NCBI GenBank assembly: GCA_947629365.1 | Contig: CANRDM010000004.1 | Span: 1 to 35,395, forward strand | Direction of reading: 5' to 3' | DNA length: 35,395 nucleotides | Source: an uncultured Bacilli bacterium | Lineage (GTDB): Bacteria > Bacillota_I > Bacilli_A > RF39 > UBA660 | In this document: piece by piece, positions 3,958 through 16,641 of the stretch | Layout of the letters: every line of letters starts with the position of its first letter | Position numbering within the stretch: position 1 is the stretch's first letter | Notes under the pieces: generated by a model | Told to the model about the DNA's origin: nothing | The model's input: the letters and a program-made list of their open reading frames with translations, nothing else | The model's database searches: none | Made by a program: the position numbers and the translations under genes

Positions 3958-4398
3958 ATGTTTATTGGTGAGTATCATCATAATATTGATGAAAAAGGGC
4001 GGATTGTTCTACCTGGAAAATTTAGAAATAATGATATGACAAAAATCGTTGTAACGCGTGGACTAGAAAAGTGCCTTTATTTGTACACCGTTGAAGATTG
4101 GGAAAAAGTTGTTTCTAAATTAAATACTTTACCTTTTACTAAAAAGGATGCCAGAACATTTATGAGATCATTTTTTGCCGGAGCCTCTGTATGCGAATTC
4201 GACAAAATGGGTCGAATCAATATTACCTCCCCGCTGGTTAGCTACGCCAATCTAACAAAAGAATGTGTTGTGATTGGCGTAAATGACCGCATTGAAATCT
4301 GGAACGAGGAAGAATATAACAATTATATGAATGAAAATTCATCTAAATTAGAAGAAATTGCTGAACACTTATTTGAGGTATCTAATGAAACATTATAG
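3958..4398 (+). CDS. mraZ: transcriptional regulator MraZ
   Basis: 146 residues with the two SpoVT/AbrB-like repeats of MraZ: GEYHHNIDEKGRIVLPGKFR (about 4-23) and CEFDKMGRINITSPLVSYA (about 80-98), each with the DxKGR-type turn. The upstream ATG at 3952 is followed at once by TAA, so 3958 is the only start. It is first in the mraZ-rsmH-ftsL-pbpB operon and should repress that operon through the adjacent operator. The segment 4164-4312 uses many G/C-ending codons (GCC, TTC, GAC, ATC, CTG, CGC), unlike the surrounding genes. Confidence 0.96.
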   Translation: MFIGEYHHNIDEKGRIVLPGKFRNNDMTKIVVTRGLEKCLYLYTVEDWEKVVSKLNTLPFTKKDARTFMRSFFAGASVCEFDKMGRINITSPLVSYANLTKECVVIGVNDRIEIWNEEEYNNYMNENSSKLEEIAEHLFEVSNETL

Positions 4399-5311
4399 TG
4401 TAATGAAAAATGAAGTTATTGATAACTTAAATATTAAAGCTAATGGAATCTATGTTGATGCTACCCTTGGGTACGCTGGGATGAGTCTAGAAATTTTAAA
4501 AAGACTTAACAAAGATGGTTTACTTATAGGTATAGATCAAGATGAAGAAGCAAGAAGTTATTCTAAAATTATCCTAGATGAGGTAGGGAGTAATTATCAA
4601 ATATTACCAATTAATTTTAAAGATATGCAAAAATATTTAAAAGAAATGGGTATAGAAAAAGTTGATGGTGTAATATTTGATTTAGGGTTTTCATCACCAC
4701 AAGTGGATGATGGAAAACGAGGATTTTCTTTTATGATTGATGCACCACTTGATATGCGTATGAACTTAGATAATAAATTAACAGCAAGAGATATTGTTAA
4801 TAGTTATAGTGAAGAAGAATTAACTAAATACTTTTATCAATATGGAGAAGAAAAGTTATCAAAAGTTATAAGTAGAGAAATAGTAAAGAAAAGAAAAGAA
4901 AAAAAGATTGAAACAACATTAGAATTGGTTGAAATTATTAAAAGTTCTGTTGGAGCTAATTACTTTTTTAAAAATCATCCTGAAAGAAAAATATTTCAAG
5001 CCTTAAGAATATTAGTAAATGATGAACTAAATGTATTAGAAAGTGTTTTACCAGATGCTATTAATATGCTTAATAAAGGTGGAAGAATATGTGTTATAAC
5101 ATTCCATTCTTTAGAAGATAGGATAGTTAAAAATATTTTTAAAAAATATAGTGAATTACCAGAAATAGTAAAAGGACTTCCTAGTATTCCGGAAGAATAT
5201 AAACCAATTATTAAATTAATAAATAAAAAACCAATAATAGCTAGTGATAAAGAATTAAGTGAAAATAGTCGAAGCCATAGTGCTAAACTTCGCGTTATAG
5301 AAAGGATATAG
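4385..5311 (+). CDS. rsmH: 16S rRNA (cytosine-N4)-methyltransferase RsmH (MraW)
   Basis: 308 residues from ATG 4385, with GAGGT 5-9 bases upstream; this start overlaps the end of mraZ by 14 bases and gives the family's usual N terminus (HYSVMKNEVIDNLNIKANGI). An in-frame start at 4358 lies deeper inside mraZ and is less likely. SAM-binding motif VDATLGYAGMS, then IGIDQDEEA, then DGVIFDLGFSSPQVDDGKRG (the family's LGxSSxQ signature) and FHSLEDRIVK near the C terminus. It methylates N4 of C1402 in 16S rRNA. Second gene of the operon. Confidence 0.97.
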   Translation: MKHYSVMKNEVIDNLNIKANGIYVDATLGYAGMSLEILKRLNKDGLLIGIDQDEEARSYSKIILDEVGSNYQILPINFKDMQKYLKEMGIEKVDGVIFDLGFSSPQVDDGKRGFSFMIDAPLDMRMNLDNKLTARDIVNSYSEEELTKYFYQYGEEKLSKVISREIVKKRKEKKIETTLELVEIIKSSVGANYFFKNHPERKIFQALRILVNDELNVLESVLPDAINMLNKGGRICVITFHSLEDRIVKNIFKKYSELPEIVKGLPSIPEEYKPIIKLINKKPIIASDKELSENSRSHSAKLRVIERI

Positions 5312-5313
5312 TT

Positions 5314-5634
5314 ATGAGTAATAAGAAAAAAATTCATTATAGATATTTAAAAGGGGAAAAATTTATGTATTTTTTAGTTGTATTATTAATTATAGCCATT
5401 CCTACAGTTAATATTTTTACCAAGGCGTTATTATCTAAAACTATCATTGAAACTGAAAATATTCAAGATAAAATAAATAAACAAGAAAATATAAATGAAG
5501 GTTTATCTATGCAAAAAGATGAACTTGTTAGTATGGAAAATATTCAAAAAGTAGCGTCAGAATATGGGCTTTCTTATCGTAGTGATAATATAGTTAAGGT
5601 TACTTATGACGAAGAAATAAATAGTGAAAACTAG
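5314..5634 (+). CDS. ftsL: FtsL-like cell division protein
   Basis: 106 residues: a short basic cytoplasmic tail (1-16), one membrane helix (about 18-40), then an extracytoplasmic coiled-coil-like segment (about 45-80). This is the topology of FtsL/DivIC, which join DivIB and the septal transpeptidase. Sequence conservation in FtsL is low, so the call relies on topology, length and the invariant position between rsmH and the class B PBP gene. The start has AAAGGA upstream, 2 bases after the rsmH stop. Confidence 0.85.
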   Translation: MSNKKKIHYRYLKGEKFMYFLVVLLIIAIPTVNIFTKALLSKTIIETENIQDKINKQENINEGLSMQKDELVSMENIQKVASEYGLSYRSDNIVKVTYDEEINSEN

Positions 5635-5644
5635 GAGGTAAATA

Positions 5645-7777
5645 ATGAGAAAAGTTACAGTAAAAATTCCCAGAATTCTTATTTTTATTGTGACTTTTCT
5701 TTTTATTGCCATCATAATTAAATTATCTTATGTTGCTCTAAGTCCTAATATTGATGGTATTAATTTAAAAGAATTTGCTAGTAATAGAAATACTAAAGAA
5801 GAAGCTATTTATGCTAAAAGAGGAGCTATATATTCAAATGATGGTAAAGTTTTAGCTTCAATGGTTAATTCTTATACTTTAATTGCTTATCTAGAACCGT
5901 CAAGAACTACTGATAAAAATGATCCCCAACACGTAGTTGATAAAGAAAAAACCGCTAAAGTTTTAAGTGAAAAGTTGGATTTATCCTATGATTACATATT
6001 AGAAAGACTAAATACTAAAGCTTATCAAGTAGAGTTTATTGGGGCTAAAAATATATCAGAGTCAAAGAAAAATGAAATTGAAGCCTTAAATTTACCTGGA
6101 ATAGATTTTCTTGTTAGTCAAAAAAGAAATTATCCAATGGGTTCATTTGCGTCATATATCTTAGGCTATGCTAAAAAAGATGAAGATGGAGAAATTATTG
6201 GTGAATTAGGAATAGAAAATGCTTATAATGATATTTTAAAAGGAAAAGATGGTAAACTAACTTATGAAACAGATGCTTATGGTTATCGTCTTCCTAGTGC
6301 TAATGTGCAAAAAGAAGAAGCCGTTGAAGGTGATGAAATATATTTAACTATTGATAGTAAGATTCAATTATTTGCCGAGAATGTAACTGATAATTTAGCT
6401 AAAACCCTTACAGATGAAGTAACTAAAAAAGTTAAAATGGATTGGATGATTTTTACCGTAATGGATGCTAAAACGGGAGCAATTGTGGCTAGTAGTACTT
6501 ATCCTGATTTTAATCCTAATGATTTAAATAGTTTAAAAAATTATGTTAATCCTTTAGTAAGTTATCCTTATGAACCAGGAAGTGTTATGAAAGTATTTAC
6601 TTGGGCATCAGCAATTGAAAATGGTGTTTATGATGGTTCTACTGAATATTTATCTGGTAAAATTAAAGTAGGGGATTATACTATCAAAGATCACGTTGGT
6701 GAACAAGGATGGGGAACAATAACTTATGATAAAGGTTTTGCCAATTCTTCCAATGTGGCAGCGACCTTAATATCAAGAGGTCTTGGCGCAAATAATTTAA
6801 AAAATTATTTATCAGAACTTGGTTTTGGCAAAAGAACTGGTATTGAATTATTTAATAAAAGTGATAAAGATGATGAACCAGCTGGAACGATTGATTTTCG
6901 AGGTGAGGTAGGTCTTGCGACTGCTTCATTTGGTCAAGGTATTATGGTAACTCCTATTCAAATTTTACAAGGACTTACGGCAATTACTAATGATGGAACA
7001 GTTATTAAACCTTATATTGTTGATAAAATAGTTAATGGTAATAATGAAGTAATCTATCAAGGGGGAAGAGAAGAGTTAAATAAAGTTTATTCTAAAGAAA
7101 CAGTTGAGCAAATGAAGAATTTAATGTATGAAGTAGTTTATAATGGTTCATCTGGTGGTATTTGGAAATCTAAAAAAACAACCATTATTGGTAAAACCGG
7201 AACAGCACAGATCGGTAGTGCTAATGGTTATCTTACTGGTCATTATGACTATATTCAAAGTTTTGCAGGTATCTTCCCTAAAGAAGATCCTCAATATATT
7301 TTCTATGTAGCTGCTGAAAAAGCGCAAACTAATGCGGGAACGATAGCTAAAGAAGTTATTAAAGCCGTTGATAATATTGTTTCCTATATGGGACTTGAAG
7401 AAAAAGAAGATGATGTATCTAATTTAACCTTTAAGTTAGATAATTATATAAGTAATGATGTAACTACTACTAAAGAAGAGTTAAAAAATAAAAAATTACA
7501 AGTTTATGTTTTAGGAAGTGGTAAATATATTACTAATCAATATCCTTTAAAAGATATGAAAGTTTTAGAGGGTAGTAAAGTATTTTTAACTACTAATTCG
7601 GATGATTATAAATTAGAAGATTTAACCAATTGGAGTTTAAATGAAGTTAAAACTTATGCTAACTTATTAGGAATAAACTTAGAAGTTGAAGGATCAGGAA
7701 AAGTAATTAGTCAAACCATTGCTAAAAATACTTTAGTAAATAAAAATACAACTTTAAAAGTTGTACTTAGTAAATAA
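5645..7777 (+). CDS. pbpB: class B penicillin-binding protein with PASTA domains (PBP2B/FtsI type)
   Basis: 710 residues. Single N-terminal membrane helix (about 10-31), PBP dimerisation domain with KRGAIYSNDGKVLA (58-71), then the transpeptidase domain with SVMK (313-316, catalytic Ser313), SSN (368-370) and KTGTA (517-521). Two C-terminal PASTA domains follow (about 590-650 and 652-710). This is the architecture of Firmicutes PBP2B, the septal transpeptidase. AGGAGGT precedes the ATG, 10 bases after ftsL. Last gene of the mraZ operon; it ends one base from the convergent gene. Confidence 0.95.
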   Translation: MRKVTVKIPRILIFIVTFLFIAIIIKLSYVALSPNIDGINLKEFASNRNTKEEAIYAKRGAIYSNDGKVLASMVNSYTLIAYLEPSRTTDKNDPQHVVDKEKTAKVLSEKLDLSYDYILERLNTKAYQVEFIGAKNISESKKNEIEALNLPGIDFLVSQKRNYPMGSFASYILGYAKKDEDGEIIGELGIENAYNDILKGKDGKLTYETDAYGYRLPSANVQKEEAVEGDEIYLTIDSKIQLFAENVTDNLAKTLTDEVTKKVKMDWMIFTVMDAKTGAIVASSTYPDFNPNDLNSLKNYVNPLVSYPYEPGSVMKVFTWASAIENGVYDGSTEYLSGKIKVGDYTIKDHVGEQGWGTITYDKGFANSSNVAATLISRGLGANNLKNYLSELGFGKRTGIELFNKSDKDDEPAGTIDFRGEVGLATASFGQGIMVTPIQILQGLTAITNDGTVIKPYIVDKIVNGNNEVIYQGGREELNKVYSKETVEQMKNLMYEVVYNGSSGGIWKSKKTTIIGKTGTAQIGSANGYLTGHYDYIQSFAGIFPKEDPQYIFYVAAEKAQTNAGTIAKEVIKAVDNIVSYMGLEEKEDDVSNLTFKLDNYISNDVTTTKEELKNKKLQVYVLGSGKYITNQYPLKDMKVLEGSKVFLTTNSDDYKLEDLTNWSLNEVKTYANLLGINLEVEGSGKVISQTIAKNTLVNKNTTLKVVLSK

Positions 7778-7778
7778 C

Positions 7779-8279
7779 TTAAAAACGTTTTAATTTAGGA
7801 CTATTTTGTTCTTTATTTAAGTAATTAAATAATTGGACAAAATAGTTCATTTCATTTTTATAGTAATCTAATTCTTGATTATTTAAATCTGAACAAAAAT
7901 AAACTTTTTTGACATAAGCTATATTATTATCTACTTTTAAATTTTTAGATATCCAATCTAGAAATTTAAACTCAAAATTAAAATCTTTGATAAAGATAAG
8001 TAAATCCGAACATTCACCATTTTCAAAACAATTTTTAATAAAATTAATTAATTTATTTATATCAAATGATGTTATTGAGTAATCTAGACAGACATTACAA
8101 AATAAACGTAAGAAATCATAAACTGACCAATTATTATATTTAAACTTGCTCGCTAATGATTTTATATAATTAGCTTGTCTTTGATATTCTTCATCAGATA
8201 TATTTCTTCTTTCAATACTTTTCTTTGGTTCTTCTTCTATTAAACCCTCTAAACGGGAACTTATAGCTAATCTTTTCAT
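7779..8279 (-). CDS. hypothetical protein at the end of the spoVD-mraY-ftsW run
   Basis: 166 residues, predicted soluble, mostly helical. A basic N terminus (KKSIERRNISDEEYQRQANY) is followed by an aromatic-rich body (YDFLRLFCNVCLDYS; FKFLDWISKNL). I recognise no family and see no catalytic motif. It lies 59 bases downstream of ftsW on the same strand and could be co-transcribed with the division genes, but nothing in the sequence proves a link. Confidence 0.7.
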   Translation of the reverse strand: MKRLAISSRLEGLIEEEPKKSIERRNISDEEYQRQANYIKSLASKFKYNNWSVYDFLRLFCNVCLDYSITSFDINKLINFIKNCFENGECSDLLIFIKDFNFEFKFLDWISKNLKVDNNIAYVKKVYFCSDLNNQELDYYKNEMNYFVQLFNYLNKEQNSPKLKRF

Positions 8280-8338
8280 AAATACCTCATTTCTTTCTCA
8301 TTATTATATAATAAATAAAAGATATTTAAAAGTTTAAA

Positions 8339-9421
8339 TTAACTATTTTTACTGATATTTAGTAATATCCCAATTGAGGCCATACTAACAAGCAAACTTG
8401 ATCCCCCATAAGATAAGAAGGGAAGAGTAACACCAGTTACGGGAATAAGGCCAACGACAACCATTAAATTCAAAACAGCTTGAATAATAAGGCCAAAAGA
8501 CAAACCAAAGGCTAAAAATTTACCAAATAAATCTTTGCTTTTTAAAGAAATCATCATCCCACGATAGAAGATAATAAAAAATAAACTACTCACAATTAAG
8601 ATACCTAAGAACCCTAACTCTTCACTAATAATAGAAAAAATAAAATCTGTTTGGGGTTCTGGTAAATAAAAATATTTTTGCCTTGATTTTAAAAAACCTT
8701 GTCCTAACAAGCCACCTGGACCAATTGCATACAAACTTTGAAGTATTTGGTAGCCGCTTCCTAAAGGGTCACTCCAAGGATTTAGAAAACTTACGATTCT
8801 TTTCATTCGGTAAGGAGCAGCGATAATGATACCTACAATCCCAAGTAAACCGAGAAGCCCCATTTTAACAAAGAAAGATATATTAACACCACTAGTAAAA
8901 ATTAACACAACTAAAGTGATGACAATAACCATTGCGGTTCCAAAATCTGGTTCCAGCATAATGATAAGGAAGAAAAAAGCAATAACTCCTAAAATAGGTA
9001 AAACACCCTTGGTAATACTTTTCATTGTTTTTTTATTATTAGTTAAATATTTGGAAACATAAATAATCAGTCCAATTTTTGCAAATTCACTTGGCTGAAT
9101 TCCTAAAGAACCAATACCAAACCAACTTCTAGAACCATTTCTAATACTACCTATACCAGGAATTAAAACAAGTATTAATAAAGTAGCGCAGATAATTAAG
9201 ATGATATTTGCGTATTTATAATAGATATGATAATCTAATTTAGTTAAGAAATACATTAAAACTAAACCGATTAAAAAGAAAATTGTTTGCATTTTAACAA
9301 ATTTATATGGATCTTGAAATTTATATTCTGCCCAAACAAAACTAGCTGAATAAATCATTACAAGTCCAAATATTGCTATTAAAAGACAAACAATTAACAA
9401 AGGTTTATCAATCTTTTTCAA
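8339..9421 (-). CDS. ftsW: FtsW/SpoVE-type SEDS peptidoglycan polymerase
   Basis: 360 residues with about ten membrane helices. SEDS signatures: IYSASFVWA near residue 24, RSWFGIGSLGIQPSEFAKIG (about 98-117), a QSLYAIGPGGLLGQG-like loop, PEPQTDFIFSIISEELGF, and the C-terminal TGVTLPFLSYGGSS. The start is a TTG with a G-rich stretch upstream (GGGGG about 10 bases away). SEDS proteins polymerise glycan strands from lipid II together with a class B PBP. It lies 23 bases after mraY, where spoVE/ftsW follows in the standard cluster, though murD is missing between them. Confidence 0.93.
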   Translation of the reverse strand: MKKIDKPLLIVCLLIAIFGLVMIYSASFVWAEYKFQDPYKFVKMQTIFFLIGLVLMYFLTKLDYHIYYKYANIILIICATLLILVLIPGIGSIRNGSRSWFGIGSLGIQPSEFAKIGLIIYVSKYLTNNKKTMKSITKGVLPILGVIAFFFLIIMLEPDFGTAMVIVITLVVLIFTSGVNISFFVKMGLLGLLGIVGIIIAAPYRMKRIVSFLNPWSDPLGSGYQILQSLYAIGPGGLLGQGFLKSRQKYFYLPEPQTDFIFSIISEELGFLGILIVSSLFFIIFYRGMMISLKSKDLFGKFLAFGLSFGLIIQAVLNLMVVVGLIPVTGVTLPFLSYGGSSLLVSMASIGILLNISKNS

Positions 9422-9444
9422 AACCCCAACCCCCTAAATATATT

Positions 9445-10437
9445 TTATAACCAAACTCCGTAAGTAATCGCTGCCATTGCGAGTAATAAACCAACCACAT
9501 AGAATAATTTTATAATATCACTTTCATTCCATTTTAATTCTTCAAAATGGTGATGCAGTGGAGCTTTTAAAAATACTTTTTTATGAAATTCTCTAATACC
9601 AATAATTTGAATAAAACTACTTAATGTTTCAATAACAAAGACTCCCCCAATAATTGCTAAAGATAATTCGTGTCTTGTTAGAATAGCAATAGTTGCTAGA
9701 GCTCCTCCTAAGGAAAGTGAACCTAAATCGCCCATAAACACTTTAGCTGGATGTGAATTAAAGACTAAAAAGCCAAGAAGAGCACCCACAATTAAGAAAC
9801 AAAAGATAGCTATTTCTTGATATCCTTCAAGCCAACCACAATTCCAAGAAATAATTCCATAAGCAAGAAAAGCAATGGCGGAAAGCCCAGCACATAGTCC
9901 ATCAAGACCATCCGTAATATTAACAGCATTAGTTGTACCTACTAATAAGAAGAGAATAAATAAACCAAAGGTCCAACCTAAAGGAATAACTAAATTTAAA
10001 GCTGTAAATTCAATTGTTGATGAACCACCACTTCGCATAAAGAAGTAGAAGAATATTAAAGCAATAATTACTTGAATTAAAAACTTAGTAACTAAACTTA
10101 AACCAGCATTATTTTTATATTTAACTTTTAAAAAGTCGTCAACTCCCCCTAAAATAGCATAGGCAAGAAAAACAAAAATTAAAATAAAGATATTAAAACT
10201 AGGCTCAATACTCCCATTTATGTAGAGGAGTATTAAAGAAAGAATAACGGGAATGATAAAAATAATTCCTCCCATTGTTGGGGTTCCTTCTTTTTTTAAA
10301 TGTCTTTTATTAATATCGCGACTAACACTTTGACCAATATGAAATTTTTTTAAAATAGGAATAAATATTAGTCCACAAGATATAGCTAGGGTAAAACCTA
10401 ACATCATTGCCATCGCAGCTTTTGCAAGAATTAACAT
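9445..10437 (-). CDS. mraY: phospho-N-acetylmuramoyl-pentapeptide transferase MraY
   Basis: 330 residues, about ten membrane helices. Family motifs: GTPTMGGIIFI (about 51-61), DDFLKVKYKNNAGLS, NAVNITDGLDGLCAG with the catalytic aspartates, FMGDLGSLSLGG, and the C-terminal APLHHHFE. It transfers phospho-MurNAc-pentapeptide to undecaprenyl phosphate to make lipid I. Second gene of the leftward spoVD-mraY-ftsW set, 78 bases after spoVD; murE, which usually sits between them, is absent. Confidence 0.97.
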   Translation of the reverse strand: MLILAKAAMAMMLGFTLAISCGLIFIPILKKFHIGQSVSRDINKRHLKKEGTPTMGGIIFIIPVILSLILLYINGSIEPSFNIFILIFVFLAYAILGGVDDFLKVKYKNNAGLSLVTKFLIQVIIALIFFYFFMRSGGSSTIEFTALNLVIPLGWTFGLFILFLLVGTTNAVNITDGLDGLCAGLSAIAFLAYGIISWNCGWLEGYQEIAIFCFLIVGALLGFLVFNSHPAKVFMGDLGSLSLGGALATIAILTRHELSLAIIGGVFVIETLSSFIQIIGIREFHKKVFLKAPLHHHFEELKWNESDIIKLFYVVGLLLAMAAITYGVWL

Positions 10438-10515
10438 ATATCCACCTCTTTTTAATTATACAACATCGTTATAGTATTTATTAAAATCGATAATAATTAT
10501 TTACATAAATTTGAC

Positions 10516-12417
10516 TTAATTTAATAGTAAAGTTATAGTGGTATCAACGCTTTGGAAAGTATTGGCTGCTGGAGACATATAAACAACTTTATCACCATTA
10601 CCACTATATTTTACTTTAAAATCTTTTAAAGCTTTAGTTGCTTCACTCTTACTCATTCCCACAACATCTGGGACAACTAAATATTTAACATCTAAATATG
10701 AATATTCTTTAAGCATTCCGCCACTTTGTTCTTTAATTCCTAATGTTTCTATCGCGCTAATTAGAATACTTCTCGCAATTGGGGCTGAGACAGTTCCGCC
10801 ATATTGAGTTACACCTTTAGGATTATCGATAGCGACATAGACTATTACCTCAGGATCATTCGCCGGTAAAAAACCAATAAAAGAAAGGGTGTAATTACCA
10901 ACCATATATTTGCCATCTTTAACTTTTTGCGCTGTTCCAGTTTTACCGCCAACACGGTAATTTTCAATGTAAGCATTTTTACCTGTCCCATTAGCTACAA
11001 CACTTTCAAGAGCAAAGCGAGCAGTAGCAGAAGTTTCGGGGGAAATAACTCTTCTTTTTTCTTTAGGTTTGTTTTCAAAGACAATGGTTTTACTTACTTC
11101 ATCAGTGGTATTCATTACTACATAAGGAGTATATAAAATACCACCATTAATAACAGCCGATACAGCAGTTATTTGTTGAATTGGTGTGACACTTATACCT
11201 TGACCAAAAGCGGTAGTGGCAAGTTCAAGTGGTCCCATTTTTTCTTCTTTAAATAGGATACCATTTCCTTCACCATTTAAATCAATACCCGTTTTACTGC
11301 CAAAACCAAAGTTTTTGATATAACTCATTAATTTTTCTACACCTAGTTTATTACCTAAAGAAACAAATCCTGGGTTACAAGAATTTTCAACTACTTCTAA
11401 GTAAGTTTGGGCACCGTGCCCACCTCTTTTCCAACAATGAAGAGTACCTCCATCAACAGATATGGCACCACTATCTGTAAAAGTATCTTTAAATAAATCA
11501 ACTGTTCCTTCTTCAATGGAAGATGCTAAAGTAATTATTTTAAAAGTACTACCAGGTTCAAAAGTCATCCAAATAGGTAAGTTTCGATTAATAACTTCTT
11601 CTGAATAATCTTGATATTTAGATGGATTAAAAGAAGGCAGGCTTCCCATTGCTAGTATTTCCCCCGTTTTAGGTTTCATTACAATACTAAGGGCGGCATC
11701 AGCATTATATTTGTCGGTAGCGTTTTTAAGTTCATTATCAACGGCTTTAACTAGTTCAATATCAAGCGTTAATTTTAAAGTCATCCCTTTAGTCGGAGCG
11801 ACATAACTATCCGGTATTTCTAATTTATTACCTTTACCATCACTATAATATTTAAGTTCTCCATTTGTCCCTTTTAAATATTCATCATAAGTAAGTTCAA
11901 GACCTGATAATCCTTGATTATCACTTCCAACAAAACCAATAATATGGGCTAAAGTTTCTCCGTAAGGATAATATCTTTTGGAATCAACTACTAAATAAAC
12001 TCCATCATATCCTAAAGCTTCAATTTTATCAGCAACTTCGCTATCTAAATCCATTCCTTTACGAATAATTTCCATACTAGAATGTTTGGAAACATATTTA
12101 TATACATCATCATAAGAACAATTTAATACATCGGCAATATCTTGGGAAACTTTTTCTTTATCTTTAATTTGATTAGGTACTACATAAATGGTTGTTGTAA
12201 CTATACTAGTAGCTAAAATATTCCCATTCCTATCAACTATATCACCCCTTGGAGCATTAATAGTCATTTTTCTACTCCACAAATCTTCAGTAATCTTGGA
12301 TAATTTATTATAAGATATTACTTGAATATAAAATACTTTGCCAATAATTAATAAAAGAGCAATCGATATAACAATTACAACAAATCTAATTCTTATATGG
12401 ATCTCGTTAAAAAACAT
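10516..12417 (-). CDS. spoVD: class B penicillin-binding protein, SpoVD-like
   Basis: 633 residues from the ATG at 12417, preceded by AGTGGTG; a GTG four codons upstream is possible but has no spaced ribosome site. One membrane helix (about 11-33), dimerisation domain with APRGDIVDRNGNILA (55-69), transpeptidase domain with STFK (290-293), SCN (346-348) and KTGTA (492-496), and a single C-terminal PASTA domain (about 575-633). Cys in SCN, one PASTA domain and the position before mraY match SpoVD, the spore-cortex transpeptidase of Bacillus. It could also be the elongation transpeptidase in this organism. First gene of the inverted half of the cluster. Confidence 0.9.
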   Translation of the reverse strand: MFFNEIHIRIRFVVIVISIALLLIIGKVFYIQVISYNKLSKITEDLWSRKMTINAPRGDIVDRNGNILATSIVTTTIYVVPNQIKDKEKVSQDIADVLNCSYDDVYKYVSKHSSMEIIRKGMDLDSEVADKIEALGYDGVYLVVDSKRYYPYGETLAHIIGFVGSDNQGLSGLELTYDEYLKGTNGELKYYSDGKGNKLEIPDSYVAPTKGMTLKLTLDIELVKAVDNELKNATDKYNADAALSIVMKPKTGEILAMGSLPSFNPSKYQDYSEEVINRNLPIWMTFEPGSTFKIITLASSIEEGTVDLFKDTFTDSGAISVDGGTLHCWKRGGHGAQTYLEVVENSCNPGFVSLGNKLGVEKLMSYIKNFGFGSKTGIDLNGEGNGILFKEEKMGPLELATTAFGQGISVTPIQQITAVSAVINGGILYTPYVVMNTTDEVSKTIVFENKPKEKRRVISPETSATARFALESVVANGTGKNAYIENYRVGGKTGTAQKVKDGKYMVGNYTLSFIGFLPANDPEVIVYVAIDNPKGVTQYGGTVSAPIARSILISAIETLGIKEQSGGMLKEYSYLDVKYLVVPDVVGMSKSEATKALKDFKVKYSGNGDKVVYMSPAANTFQSVDTTITLLLN

Positions 12418-12497
12418 ATTATTCACCACTAAATAATATGTTTTAAAATTATTTATTATTAACTTCGAAAATTTACATATAATTTATTATAAATAAA

Positions 12498-12547: not shown

Positions 12548-13099
12548 ATGCATTGGTGGATAATTTTAATTATTGTGGCTGTTTTAATTATTTTATATGT
12601 AATAAGTGTTTATAATAGTCTTGTTAGTTTAAAAAACAAAGTAGACGATCAAAAAAGTCAAATTGATGTAGAACTTAAAAGAAGATTTGATTTAGTACCT
12701 AATTTAGTTGAAACAGTTAAAGGTTATACTAAACACGAGAAAGAAACTTTAGAGGATGTTGTTAAAGCTAGAAATGCTTATGCAACTGCAAATAGCACCG
12801 AAGAATCTTTAAAAGCTGATGGTGAATTAACTAAAGCTATTAACAAATTATTTGCTTTATCAGAAAGTTATCCTGATTTAAAGGCTAATCAAAACTTTAT
12901 TGATTTACAAAATGAGCTTTCTGAAATTGAACAAAAAATTGTTTATGCTAGAGGTTTCTATAATGACTCTATCTTAAAATATAATAATAAAGTTCAAATG
13001 TTTCCATCTAATATAATTGCTAAAATATTTGGCTTTACTAAAGGTGCTTTCTTTGAAGCTAGTAGTGAAGAAAGAGAAAATGTTAAAGTTAAATTCTAA
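12548..13099 (+). CDS. lemA: LemA family protein
   Basis: 183 residues. An N-terminal membrane helix (about 3-22) leads straight into the LemA helical bundle: YNSLVSLKNKVDDQKSQID, RRFDLVPNLVETVKGYTKHE, and the C-terminal IVYARGFYNDSILKYNN ... FPSNIIAKIFGF signature. The bundle should lie outside the membrane. It is strongly expressed-looking (good promoter, ideal AAGGAGG) and paired with a DUF2207 protein gene; LemA genes very often neighbour such membrane proteins. The function of the family is not settled. Confidence 0.95.
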   Translation: MHWWIILIIVAVLIILYVISVYNSLVSLKNKVDDQKSQIDVELKRRFDLVPNLVETVKGYTKHEKETLEDVVKARNAYATANSTEESLKADGELTKAINKLFALSESYPDLKANQNFIDLQNELSEIEQKIVYARGFYNDSILKYNNKVQMFPSNIIAKIFGFTKGAFFEASSEERENVKVKF

Positions 13100-13122
13100 A
13101 GGCATTGTTAATGCCTTTTAAT
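13098..13122 (+). terminator. hairpin after lemA
   Basis: AAAGGCATT / AATGCCTTT with a 3-base loop, followed by a broken T tract. It could attenuate read-through into the DUF2207 gene and so set LemA in excess. Confidence 0.6.
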
Positions 13123-13136
13123 TTTTGAGGTGACTT

Positions 13137-14810
13137 ATGATAAAAAAATTATCTTATATAATAATATTATTAATAACTTTATTTATAAGTAGTGAAGTAT
13201 ACGCAAATGATATAAAAAAAATAACTATGGATATTTATGTTAATAATAATGGTGATGCTTTAGTTACGGAAGAATGGACGGCTGATTTAGATAGAGGAAC
13301 AGAAGGGTATAAGCCATACTATAATTTAGGTGAAAGTGAAATTAAAGACTTTAAAGTATATTTAAATAATTATGAATATGAAACATTATCTAGTTGGAAC
13401 GTTGATGCCTCATTTAATGAAAAAGCTTACAAAGCAGGATTAAACGAGATAAATAATGGCTATGAATTATGCTTTGGCATTAGTAAATATGGCCTTAATA
13501 CCTACAGAATGGTTTATACAATTACTAATTTTGTTTCCAGTGTTAGTGATGCTGATATGATTTATTGGCAATTAGTGCCTTATGATTTATCGGATAAACC
13601 TGATTATGTTTATATTAAAATCCATAGTGATTTTGCTTATGCTAATGACTTGCCTGTATGGGGATATGGTAACTACGGAGGATATGCTTATGTTTATGAT
13701 GGATATATCGAAATGCTAAAAGAAGATGGTCTTGATAGCGATGAATATATGACTATCTTAGTTAAATTTCCCAAAGGAACTTTTAATACTTCTTCAAAAT
13801 TAAATAAAGATTTTGCTTATTATTTAGATATGGCTAACGATGGCGCTAAAACATATTCTGATAAGCTCAGTTGGTGGCAAGTTATTTTAACGATTATAGG
13901 TATAGTCATTGCCTTTATTTTAAACTTTTTACCTTATATAATTATTCTTTTTGTTATTTATAAAATATTTAGTCAAAGCAAATATGGTACCAAAAAATTA
14001 AAATTTGGCAAAATTGGTAAAAAAGTAAAAAATTCACCATATTTTAGAGATATTCCTTTAAATAAAGATATATTTAAAGCTTATTGGGTAGCTTGTGAAT
14101 ATAATTTAATTAAAAAACAAACCGATTTTTTAGGAGCAATTCTTTTAAAATGGTTAAAAAATAATAATATTGAAAATGTAACTATGGAAGGTAAGGATAA
14201 AGCTCTTAAACTTATTAGTGGTGATAATCTATCGGTAAGAGAAAAAGAATTATTTGATATGATGTTAAAAGCCTCAGTTGATGGGGTATTAGAAAGTAAT
14301 GAATTTACTAATTGGTGTAAAAATAATTATAATAAGATATTATCTTGGTTTAATAATGTTATTGATGATCAAACAATTAATTTTGTTAATGAAGGTTTAA
14401 TTAGAGAAGAAAAAGGGAAATTTACTACAACTTATTATGTTGATGATAAAATGATGGAATATGCTATTCAAATGGATGGATTAAAAAATTTCTTAAATGA
14501 TTTTTCGAATATTAAAGACAGAGAAGCAATTGAAGTTAAAATCTGGGAATACTATTTAATGTATGCTCAAATATTTGGTATAGCTGAAAAGGTAGCCAAA
14601 GAATTTAAAAGATTATACCCTGATATTTTAACAGATGATTATTATAATGATGTAATATTTATTCATACAATATCAGCTAAAGGAGTAAGCGCTGCAAGCA
14701 CAGCTAAAAGTAGAGCCGAGAGTTATTCATCGGGTGGAGGAGGATTCTCATCTGGTGGAGGTGGCGGTGGTTCCTTCGGTGGCGGAGGCGGCGGAGGCGG
14801 TTTCCGTTAA
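13137..14810 (+). CDS. DUF2207 membrane protein with glycine-rich tail
   Basis: 557 residues. Signal peptide (1-23, ending SEVYA), extracellular DUF2207 domain (about 24-225, with ITMDIYVNNNGDALVTEEWT and YWQLVPYDLS), a long double membrane segment (about 245-280), a large cytoplasmic part, and a final tail of SSGGGGF and GGGGGG blocks ending GGGFR. The tail is typical of DUF2207 proteins. The DNA for the tail (about 14727-14810) is far richer in G and C than the rest. It follows lemA and probably works with it at the envelope; the role is unknown. Confidence 0.88.
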   Translation: MIKKLSYIIILLITLFISSEVYANDIKKITMDIYVNNNGDALVTEEWTADLDRGTEGYKPYYNLGESEIKDFKVYLNNYEYETLSSWNVDASFNEKAYKAGLNEINNGYELCFGISKYGLNTYRMVYTITNFVSSVSDADMIYWQLVPYDLSDKPDYVYIKIHSDFAYANDLPVWGYGNYGGYAYVYDGYIEMLKEDGLDSDEYMTILVKFPKGTFNTSSKLNKDFAYYLDMANDGAKTYSDKLSWWQVILTIIGIVIAFILNFLPYIIILFVIYKIFSQSKYGTKKLKFGKIGKKVKNSPYFRDIPLNKDIFKAYWVACEYNLIKKQTDFLGAILLKWLKNNNIENVTMEGKDKALKLISGDNLSVREKELFDMMLKASVDGVLESNEFTNWCKNNYNKILSWFNNVIDDQTINFVNEGLIREEKGKFTTTYYVDDKMMEYAIQMDGLKNFLNDFSNIKDREAIEVKIWEYYLMYAQIFGIAEKVAKEFKRLYPDILTDDYYNDVIFIHTISAKGVSAASTAKSRAESYSSGGGGFSSGGGGGGSFGGGGGGGGFR

Positions 14811-14894: not shown

Positions 14895-15518
14895 TTAAAA
14901 TTTACGATATAAGCCAATAGCAACTCCTAAAATGGTACAATTACTTAATATAATTGGTTCCATTGTATCATTTTCTGGCTGTAATCTGATATGACCATTC
15001 TCTTTATAAAATCTTTTTAGTGTTGCTTCATTTTCCATAGTCATTGCGACAACTATATCGCCATTTTTGGCATTGCTTTGCTTTTTAACAATAACATAAT
15101 CACCATCAAAGATACCAGCATTAATCATACTTTCACCACTGACGTGAAGAGTAAATACTTCTTCTTTAGCGGGGATTAAAGATGCCGGTAAATCAAAAAA
15201 TTCATTAGGTTGTTCAATGGCAGTAATAGGGCTACCGGCTGTTATTTTACCAAGAAGAGGAACTTTAACAACATCTTCATTAGTTTTTAAATATTCATTT
15301 TCACATAATATTTCAATTGTTCTAAATTTGTTACTTGTTGTTTTAATGTAACCTAATTGTTCAAGATTTTTTAAATGAACAAAAACTGTTGCGGGACTTG
15401 ATAATCCAACACCTTTACATATTTCTCTAATTGCAGGGGGATATCCGTGTTCAGCCGTATATTTTTTGACAAAATCTAAAATATCATTTTGTCTTTTAGT
15501 TAATTCTTTAGTATTCAT
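14895..15518 (-). CDS. lexA: SOS repressor LexA
   Basis: 207 residues. N-terminal winged helix (about 1-70, with GYPPAIREICKGVGLSSPATV), then the S24 self-cleavage domain: cleavage site ITAGSPITA with Ala94-Gly95, catalytic Ser130 in HVSGESM and Lys168 in EATLKRF. All residues for RecA-stimulated autocleavage are present. AGGAGTGATGAA precedes the ATG. Its own promoter overlaps a LexA box, so it should be autoregulated, and it faces a second SOS-box promoter. Confidence 0.97.
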   Translation of the reverse strand: MNTKELTKRQNDILDFVKKYTAEHGYPPAIREICKGVGLSSPATVFVHLKNLEQLGYIKTTSNKFRTIEILCENEYLKTNEDVVKVPLLGKITAGSPITAIEQPNEFFDLPASLIPAKEEVFTLHVSGESMINAGIFDGDYVIVKKQSNAKNGDIVVAMTMENEATLKRFYKENGHIRLQPENDTMEPIILSNCTILGVAIGLYRKF

Positions 15519-15536: not shown

Positions 15537-15575
15537 ATTTTACACTAAATATTGTTAAATGTCAAACAATTGTTT
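15537..15575 (-). promoter_or_regulatory. lexA promoter with overlapping SOS box
   Basis: On the minus strand, TTGACA (15560-15565), 17-base spacer, TAAAAT (15537-15542). The palindrome AAACAATTGTTT (15564-15575) overlaps the -35. It matches the Firmicutes LexA box (GAACN4GTTC) in layout with an A and a T at the outer positions. Confidence 0.85.
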
Positions 15576-15602: not shown

Positions 15603-15632
15603 TTGAAACGAACAATTGTTTTTTGATAAGAT
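15603..15632 (+). promoter_or_regulatory. SOS-box promoter of the small membrane peptide gene
   Basis: TTGAAA (15603-15608), 18-base spacer, TAAGAT (15627-15632). The spacer contains GAACAATTGTTT (15610-15621), a LexA-box-type near palindrome, so LexA would block polymerase binding. Confidence 0.8.
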
Positions 15633-15657
15633 GATAGGGAAAGAAGGAGTGATAATT

Positions 15658-15795
15658 ATGAAAAAAACATTAATTGATTTAGGAGGGATTATATTATTTT
15701 ATTTAATATTAATTTTTGGCGTAATTATCCTGAACAATCGATTTACCGAACTAAATAAAAATATTAATGCTGGTTTAATAGTAAGTACTCATTGA
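15658..15795 (+). CDS. 45-residue SOS-controlled membrane peptide (YneA/SosA-like position)
   Basis: ATG 15658 follows an ideal AAGAAGGAG ribosome site at 8 bases. The product has a short basic start (MKKTLID), one membrane helix (about 8-26, GGIILFYLILIFGVIIL) and a 20-residue polar tail ending VSTH. Its promoter holds a LexA box and its 3' end overlaps an intrinsic terminator, so it is a monocistronic SOS gene divergent from lexA. That is the position and topology of the SOS division inhibitors YneA (Bacillus) and SosA (Staphylococcus), but this peptide is shorter and has no LysM domain; I see no sequence similarity that proves the link. Function as a damage-induced division inhibitor is inference. 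Confidence 0.75.
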   Translation: MKKTLIDLGGIILFYLILIFGVIILNNRFTELNKNINAGLIVSTH

Positions 15796-15811
15796 CATAA
15801 GTACTTTTTTT
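15783..15811 (+). terminator. terminator of the SOS peptide gene
   Basis: AAGTACT / AGTACTT with a 10-base loop and a run of seven T. It overlaps the last four codons of the peptide gene. Confidence 0.85.
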
Positions 15812-15849
15812 CTTTAAAATATCATTTTGATAGTGAAAAGAGGAATATA

Positions 15850-16641
15850 ATGGAAATAACTTCAATCGATAAAATAAAGAAAGCTTATTCTTTTAGTAAT
15901 GAAAATTTAACTGCCTATCAAAACATTATTGATTTTAAAGATAAAAATGTTTTATCAGTTGTGGGAAGTGGCGACCAATACTTTTCTTTTCTTCTTTTTG
16001 GGGCAAAAGAAATAGACTTGTTTGATAACAATTTGGTGGCATTGTATTATTTTTATTTAAAATATTATGCAATTATGTTATTAAACTATAAAGAATTTAT
16101 TGATAGTTTTTATTATTATAAAAATACTCAGAAAAATTATAGTAAAATTAGAGATTGCCTCCCAGATGAAATAAAAACTTTTTTTGATGAGTTTTTAAAA
16201 AATAAGGGCTTAAACTCGTTATTATATAAGCCTATTCCTTTATCAATTCATACTGATAATGTTGATAGAACAATTCCTTATTTAAAAGGTAAACGTTATT
16301 ATGAATTAAAAGAATTACTTAAAAGCACATCTTTTCCCAATGTGTTTTTATATGATTTACGCGATTTATATGCATCATTAGATAGAAATTATGATATTAT
16401 GATATTTTCTAATATATATGCTTATTTAAATATGGAAGTTAAAGAATATCGTCAATTTTTAAAAAAATATGAAAAATTTTTAAATGATGGTGGTGTTATT
16501 GAAGCTAACTATGAATGGATATCCTTTGAACGCGATTTTAAAAAGTATGGTTTTAAAAAACATTATGTTGATTCTGCCAATGACAAAATGCTGGCTTTAA
16601 ATGATAAAGATAATATCATAACTTTAAAAAAACACTTTTAA
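15850..16641 (+). CDS. DUF3419-like SAM-binding protein
   Basis: 263 residues, soluble. The N-terminal third reads like DUF3419 (the BtaA-related SAM-dependent family): VLSVVGSGDQYFSFLLFGAK (about 35-54), a strand ending EIDLFDNN, then the LKYYAIMLLNYKEFI helix. A later strand, YDIMIFSNIYAYL (about 181-193), and FLNDGGVIEANY fit motif IV and V positions of a Rossmann methyltransferase fold. BtaA moves the aminocarboxypropyl group of SAM to diacylglycerol; whether this short version does so is unknown. AAGAGG lies upstream. The next gene is a glycolipid synthase, so lipid-related work is possible, but that is inference. Confidence 0.55.
   Translation: MEITSIDKIKKAYSFSNENLTAYQNIIDFKDKNVLSVVGSGDQYFSFLLFGAKEIDLFDNNLVALYYFYLKYYAIMLLNYKEFIDSFYYYKNTQKNYSKIRDCLPDEIKTFFDEFLKNKGLNSLLYKPIPLSIHTDNVDRTIPYLKGKRYYELKELLKSTSFPNVFLYDLRDLYASLDRNYDIMIFSNIYAYLNMEVKEYRQFLKKYEKFLNDGGVIEANYEWISFERDFKKYGFKKHYVDSANDKMLALNDKDNIITLKKHF

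Follow-up and report, generated by a model that had tools for sequence, protein, structure and literature searches.

A conserved 45-residue membrane peptide gene under a predicted LexA-type operator beside lexA, probably encoding an SOS division inhibitor, in Bacilli with reduced genomes

The known membrane-bound division inhibitors of the SOS response are single-span proteins that are often encoded beside lexA (PMC6851548). The transmembrane helix of YneA from Bacillus subtilis binds transmembrane helix 7 of FtsW, and structures predicted with modest confidence put SosA and SidA at this helix as well; the YneA helix deprived of its LysM domain localizes without inhibiting division (PMC13396833). 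SosA of Staphylococcus aureus (77 aa) is encoded divergently from lexA, is SOS-controlled and has one transmembrane helix and no LysM domain; its membrane-proximal outer residues are required, and trimming of its C-terminus stabilizes it (PMC6851548). SidA of Caulobacter, a very short SOS membrane peptide of 29 aa, also targets FtsW (PMC4211646).

The DNA analyzed here, referred to as the window, is a stretch of 35,395 nucleotides from a lineage of gut bacteria placed by NCBI among uncultured Bacilli/Mycoplasmatota, whose family includes Candidatus Pelethosoma and has reduced genomes of about 1.1 Mb. Beside lexA, the following features were delineated.

14895..15518, minus strand: lexA (207 aa), divergent from the small gene (TIGR00498, 2.6e-68; PF01726, PF00717)
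15564..15575, minus strand: second LexA-type operator, AAACAATTGTTT, overlapping the -35 element of the lexA promoter
15603..15632, plus strand: predicted small-gene promoter, TTGAAA, 18 nt, TAAGAT (from the sequence, with equivalent hexamers in relatives)
15610..15621, plus strand: LexA-type operator, GAACAATTGTTT, filling the -35/-10 spacer of the small gene
15644..15649, plus strand: ribosome site AAGGAG, 8 nt 5' of the ATG (from the sequence)
15658..15795, plus strand: gene for the 45-residue peptide (MKKTLIDLGGIILFYLILIFGVIILNNRFTELNKNINAGLIVSTH), ATG at 15658 to TGA at 15795 (sequence and conservation)
15782..15813, plus strand: weak stem and T run across the stop codon, claimed as a terminator and unsupported by folding against shuffles

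An earlier note on this DNA had described a 45-residue, one-helix frame divergent from lexA, with a LexA-type box in its promoter spacer and a strong ribosome site, and all of this stands: the frame (15658-15795) runs away from lexA (15518-14895), AAGGAG lies at 15644-15649, and the box (15610-15621) sits exactly between the -35 TTGAAA (15603-15608) and the -10 (15627-15632), the latter forming part of an extended -10, TGaTAAGAT (15624-15632). The predicted -10 implies an mRNA leader of only about 20 nt. A longer reading from TTG at 15616 was dismissed because it overlaps the operator and because the conserved start is the ATG at 15658. Equivalent promoter hexamers flank a LexA-type box at 102 of 115 family loci, and in almost all relatives the box begins 42-52 nt 5' of the peptide's ATG. 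Box frequency was dropped as evidence, as counts in the window and the genome are at chance level: chance alone predicts 1.0 occurrences of GAACNNNNGTTY per window, so that a single occurrence is not improbable, and the genome-wide count of the box class showed no enrichment over a reversed control. What goes beyond chance is the placement and conservation of the box, together with the conservation of the frame.

Within the genus, lexA was found in 35 genomes (the window's own included), and the earlier note had staked its reading on the frame being conserved beside lexA in close relatives. It is: 34 of the 35 loci have the same frame with a ribosome site and two boxes upstream of lexA, and the exception (G031), in which lexA lies elsewhere, keeps the peptide gene adjoining an MGDG-type glycosyltransferase gene and tkt, its promoter spacer holding the box-like GAACAAAGATTT with one mismatch. 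The pN/pS ratio is about 1.2 in the tail against 0.45 for the helix together with the juxtamembrane part, and F14, Y15, G21, L25, R28 and N33 are invariant in 34 sequences; judged by these comparisons, the small frame is under purifying selection. Short open frames are common in AT-rich DNA, and a chance frame in the AT-rich lexA promoter region might be suspected in one so short, unrelated frames of 40-60 aa being also present among those listed for the window. That reading is scarcely credible, however, and conservation at the sequence level already contradicts it, given a core pN/pS well below 1, homologues in phage and, in over 30 genomes, a conserved start and ribosome site and indels that stay in-frame.

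The same LexA-type box recurs 76-82 nt upstream of recA in 15 of 15 genus genomes checked, from which it follows that an SOS regulon exists, and no box was found at a comparable position before recA in the readable genomes of the class without lexA. In the window's own genome, a LexA-type box also precedes a Y-family polymerase gene; another lies between ruvA and ruvB (L248, G000:C11:696-707). LexA control of the small gene is supported by the boxes in the two divergent promoters and by the identical box at recA, the gene thus having a conserved operator in its promoter alongside a lexA and a recA that look functional. It is almost certainly a conserved protein-coding gene under a predicted LexA-type operator.

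Beyond the genus, 81 of 95 other distinct lexA loci in the family have an open reading frame of 28-64 aa in the same slot, picked by size, ribosome site and hydrophobicity, a few of the picks (such as L101, L104 and L162) being doubtful; about 14 have none. Only one box is present at 10 of the 14 loci without the frame, whereas two or more are found at 59 of the 81 with it. The A1 peptide profile recognized roughly half of 120 lexA-adjacent peptides at E < 1e-3. The remainder, the MKEMLKSK type among them, match in size, topology, operator and position but show no detectable likeness in sequence, and hhalign gave a probability of 13%, that is, no detectable homology, between the divergent genera with the MKEMLKSK type and the genus peptide. 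In a different family of the class (f11; L069, L158 and L159), which we guess to be Turicibacter-like, the same slot holds an unrelated membrane peptide of 57 aa, with three LexA-type boxes. Conservation thus extends much further for the arrangement (lexA, then a small membrane gene, at some loci a glycosyltransferase gene, then tkt) than for the sequence of the peptide. In many genera the peptide gene sits between lexA and tkt; we take tkt to lie likewise a short distance after lexA-yneA in B. subtilis and lexA-sosA in S. aureus.

These neighbours bear on the idea that the peptide is a small membrane regulator of a neighbourhood function, namely glycolipid synthesis by the MGDG-type glycosyltransferase or a membrane protease. 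At most genus loci the glycosyltransferase gene comes next or after one intervening gene, and in G031 it and the peptide gene stay paired away from lexA; many genera, however, have tkt as the neighbour instead while the peptide and its LexA box remain, and the downstream genes appear to have separate promoters of their own, which makes such a role improbable.

The peptide consists of a conserved core, formed by the helix and a juxtamembrane motif LNxRFxYLN (LN-x-RF-xx-LN), and a variable tail that usually ends [VI][TA]MN[NKE]. The ending [VIL][ATGN][MVI]N[NKEQD] occurs in 21 of 34 tails against 0.09 expected in shuffled tails, a contrast that is somewhat flattering as the motif was derived from the same sequences. 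AlphaFold2 predicts one helix over residues 2-43, with pLDDT of 95-97 for residues 11-30 and confidence to about residue 30. Clustering of conserved residues on one helical face was suggestive and not significant (p = 0.13). Searches of Pfam, NCBIfam and the PDB gave no match and hence no detectable homology to a characterized inhibitor. As the earlier note had said, there is no LysM domain and little outside the helix: the tail is about 18 aa long, without a Pfam match.

That note had also placed an intrinsic terminator at the end of the gene, which did not survive scrutiny: the 7-bp stem, with two G-C pairs and -4.5 kcal/mol, folds no better than shuffles (z -0.92), the structure at 15782-15813 is not listed in a terminator scan of the window, and the stem is missing in most relatives. 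It overlaps the TTGACA that opens an 11/12 candidate promoter (15792-15820) of a DUF3419 gene. This gene (15850-16641) lies between the peptide gene and the MGDG-type glycosyltransferase gene only in the window species, L004 and L008, and in the same lineages the peptide tail is without the MN motif, coinciding with the insertion just downstream. From the sequences, it looks as if the DUF3419 insertion had replaced the 3' end of the peptide gene.

Set beside the described inhibitors, the peptide has the anatomy of SosA in miniature: a helix is followed by a strict outer motif close to the membrane and by a loose tail whose end is conserved, and SosA too is conserved in its extracellular segment next to the membrane and to some extent at its C-terminus (PMC6851548). 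The peptide differs in having 45 aa, with about 18 residues outside, and is likened to SosA by description, no model named SosA having matched among the family models searched with it. YneA is similarly divergent from lexA under a LexA box, SOS-controlled and anchored by an N-terminal transmembrane segment, but the peptide is roughly half its length and, because it is without the LysM domain that YneA needs for inhibition, is not a YneA. SidA resembles it in size and proposed function rather than in sequence and comes from another phylum. The likeness to YneA and SosA drawn in the earlier note therefore stands for slot, divergence and topology, whereas the missing LysM domain does not by itself set the peptide apart, because SosA and SidA are also without it.

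TisB of Escherichia coli, a LexA-controlled peptide of 29 aa (PMC11449926, PMC8145889), suggests another reading, in which the peptide is an SOS membrane toxin that depolarizes the membrane and drives dormancy, with no divisome target. Its small size, LexA control and single hydrophobic helix are all matched here. However, tisB depends on a standby site that lies about 100 nt 5' of its ribosome-binding site (PMC7708055), and the predicted leader of the small gene is too short for control of that type; the long tisB leader is absent, the window has no Rfam match, and no antisense RNA is known. The strict position beside lexA, to which tisB is not tied, and sequence-specific invariants (R28, F29 and the N33 motif) suggestive of a protein partner also argue against a TisB-like toxin, which we regard as rather unlikely.

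The peptide is instead probably an SOS-induced division inhibitor, and the components on which it might act are encoded in the same genome, which has FtsZ and, in the window, FtsW, FtsL and two FtsI-type penicillin-binding proteins (PBPs).

5314..7777, plus strand: FtsL and a division-type PBP (FtsI/PBP2B class), proposed target complex (TIGR02209, 2e-11; PBP families)
8339..9421, minus strand: FtsW/SpoVE-type septal glycan polymerase, proposed target (TIGR02615, 8.6e-136; TIGR02614, 1.5e-121)

They belong to a division and cell-wall cluster (3958-12429) of unusual order, with mraZ-rsmH-ftsL-PBP on the plus strand and the FtsW/SpoVE-type gene, mraY and a SpoVD-like PBP gene on the minus strand; a LemA-like gene and then a gene for a DUF2207 membrane protein whose C-terminal tail is rich in glycine follow at 12548-14810. 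An FtsW-directed inhibitor is favoured because of the SosA-like anatomy, the precedents of YneA and SidA, and by prediction SosA, acting on FtsW, and the presence of genes for FtsW, FtsL, PBPs and FtsZ; by analogy, FtsW may well be the target, an assignment that we hold tentatively. LexA sitting between the -35 and -10 elements would repress the small gene, and RecA-triggered LexA cleavage would turn it on along with lexA, recA and the Y-family polymerase gene. The product would be a bitopic peptide, oriented according to the positive-inside rule with its N-terminus inside; through its helix and the juxtamembrane LNxRFxYLN it would dock onto the complex that synthesizes the septal wall, most likely at FtsW, and halt septum synthesis until the DNA is repaired. 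As the YneA helix without LysM does not inhibit division in B. subtilis, so short-tailed a peptide would need another way to block FtsW. The variable extracytoplasmic tail with its conserved end is proposed as a turnover or degradation signal, which is speculative and rather doubtful. On the whole, the best explanation is likely to be an SOS-induced inhibitor of septal wall synthesis of the YneA/SosA/SidA kind, probably acting on FtsW, and the suggestion of a minimal or independent type in the earlier note fits best a conserved one-helix peptide that is small, divergent from lexA and without LysM, the inhibition itself being what we infer.

Homologues also occur among phage replication genes.

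L257 (G072:C29), 10575-10724: phage-like copy (A1 profile E 4.7e-16, its sequence not being part of A1)
L253, 282-446, and L255, 5980-6135: phage copies

The G072 copy lies on a 12-kb contig full of phage replication genes, possibly a prophage and possibly a separate phage contig that was binned into the metagenome-assembled genome; the lexA locus of G072 is without the peptide gene. Scans of IMG/VR gave two further phages with homologues, one found in two samples, and no INPHARED phage matched the peptide. A further IMG/VR match (L256) was rejected as chance, being GC-rich and read inside a larger gene (HMM E 0.015). The phage homologues have HMM E-values of 7e-15 to 5e-11 (over 688 segments), and the PHROGs around them include SSB, an Erf-like annealing protein, an exonuclease, a DnaD-like loader and DnaB helicase. 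They keep VIVxGVIxLNARFEYLN most strictly and have no LexA box and no MN tail; because the helix and juxtamembrane motif are kept in all lineages, these would form the functional core. Such homologues, and a weak PHROG match of the G072 copy to a Sie-like family (E 0.001), could also be read as signs that the chromosomal gene came from a phage, where its peptide served host takeover or superinfection exclusion, and was domesticated beside lexA. This is very improbable, as phage copies are few while chromosomal copies are far more numerous, fixed in position and LexA-boxed; for the same reasons, capture by phages from their hosts is the simpler direction and apparently took place. Gp11 of S. 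aureus phage phiNM1, an early small membrane protein that blocks division by binding MurG and DivIC and disrupting FtsW recruitment (PMC11237401), is a precedent for a phage small membrane protein that stops division, although it is likened by description and is, as far as is known, no homologue of a host SOS gene. One possibility, which we put forward with some doubt, is that of a minimal SOS division inhibitor, with the helix and LNxRFxYLN as its core, that stops FtsW without a wall-binding domain; temperate phages would have taken it, shed both its LexA box and the MN motif usual at the C-terminus (a putative turnover tag), and placed it in an early operon as a block on host division.

YneA requires LysM whereas SosA and SidA are without it, which raises the question of how single-helix SOS peptides stop FtsW. 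A sharp core of about 25 residues, natural variants without the tail motif, and phage versions make this question directly testable. For the organisms themselves, the locus would mean that a dedicated SOS checkpoint is retained in strongly reduced genomes (about 1.1 Mb) through genes that fall under the usual annotation length limits.
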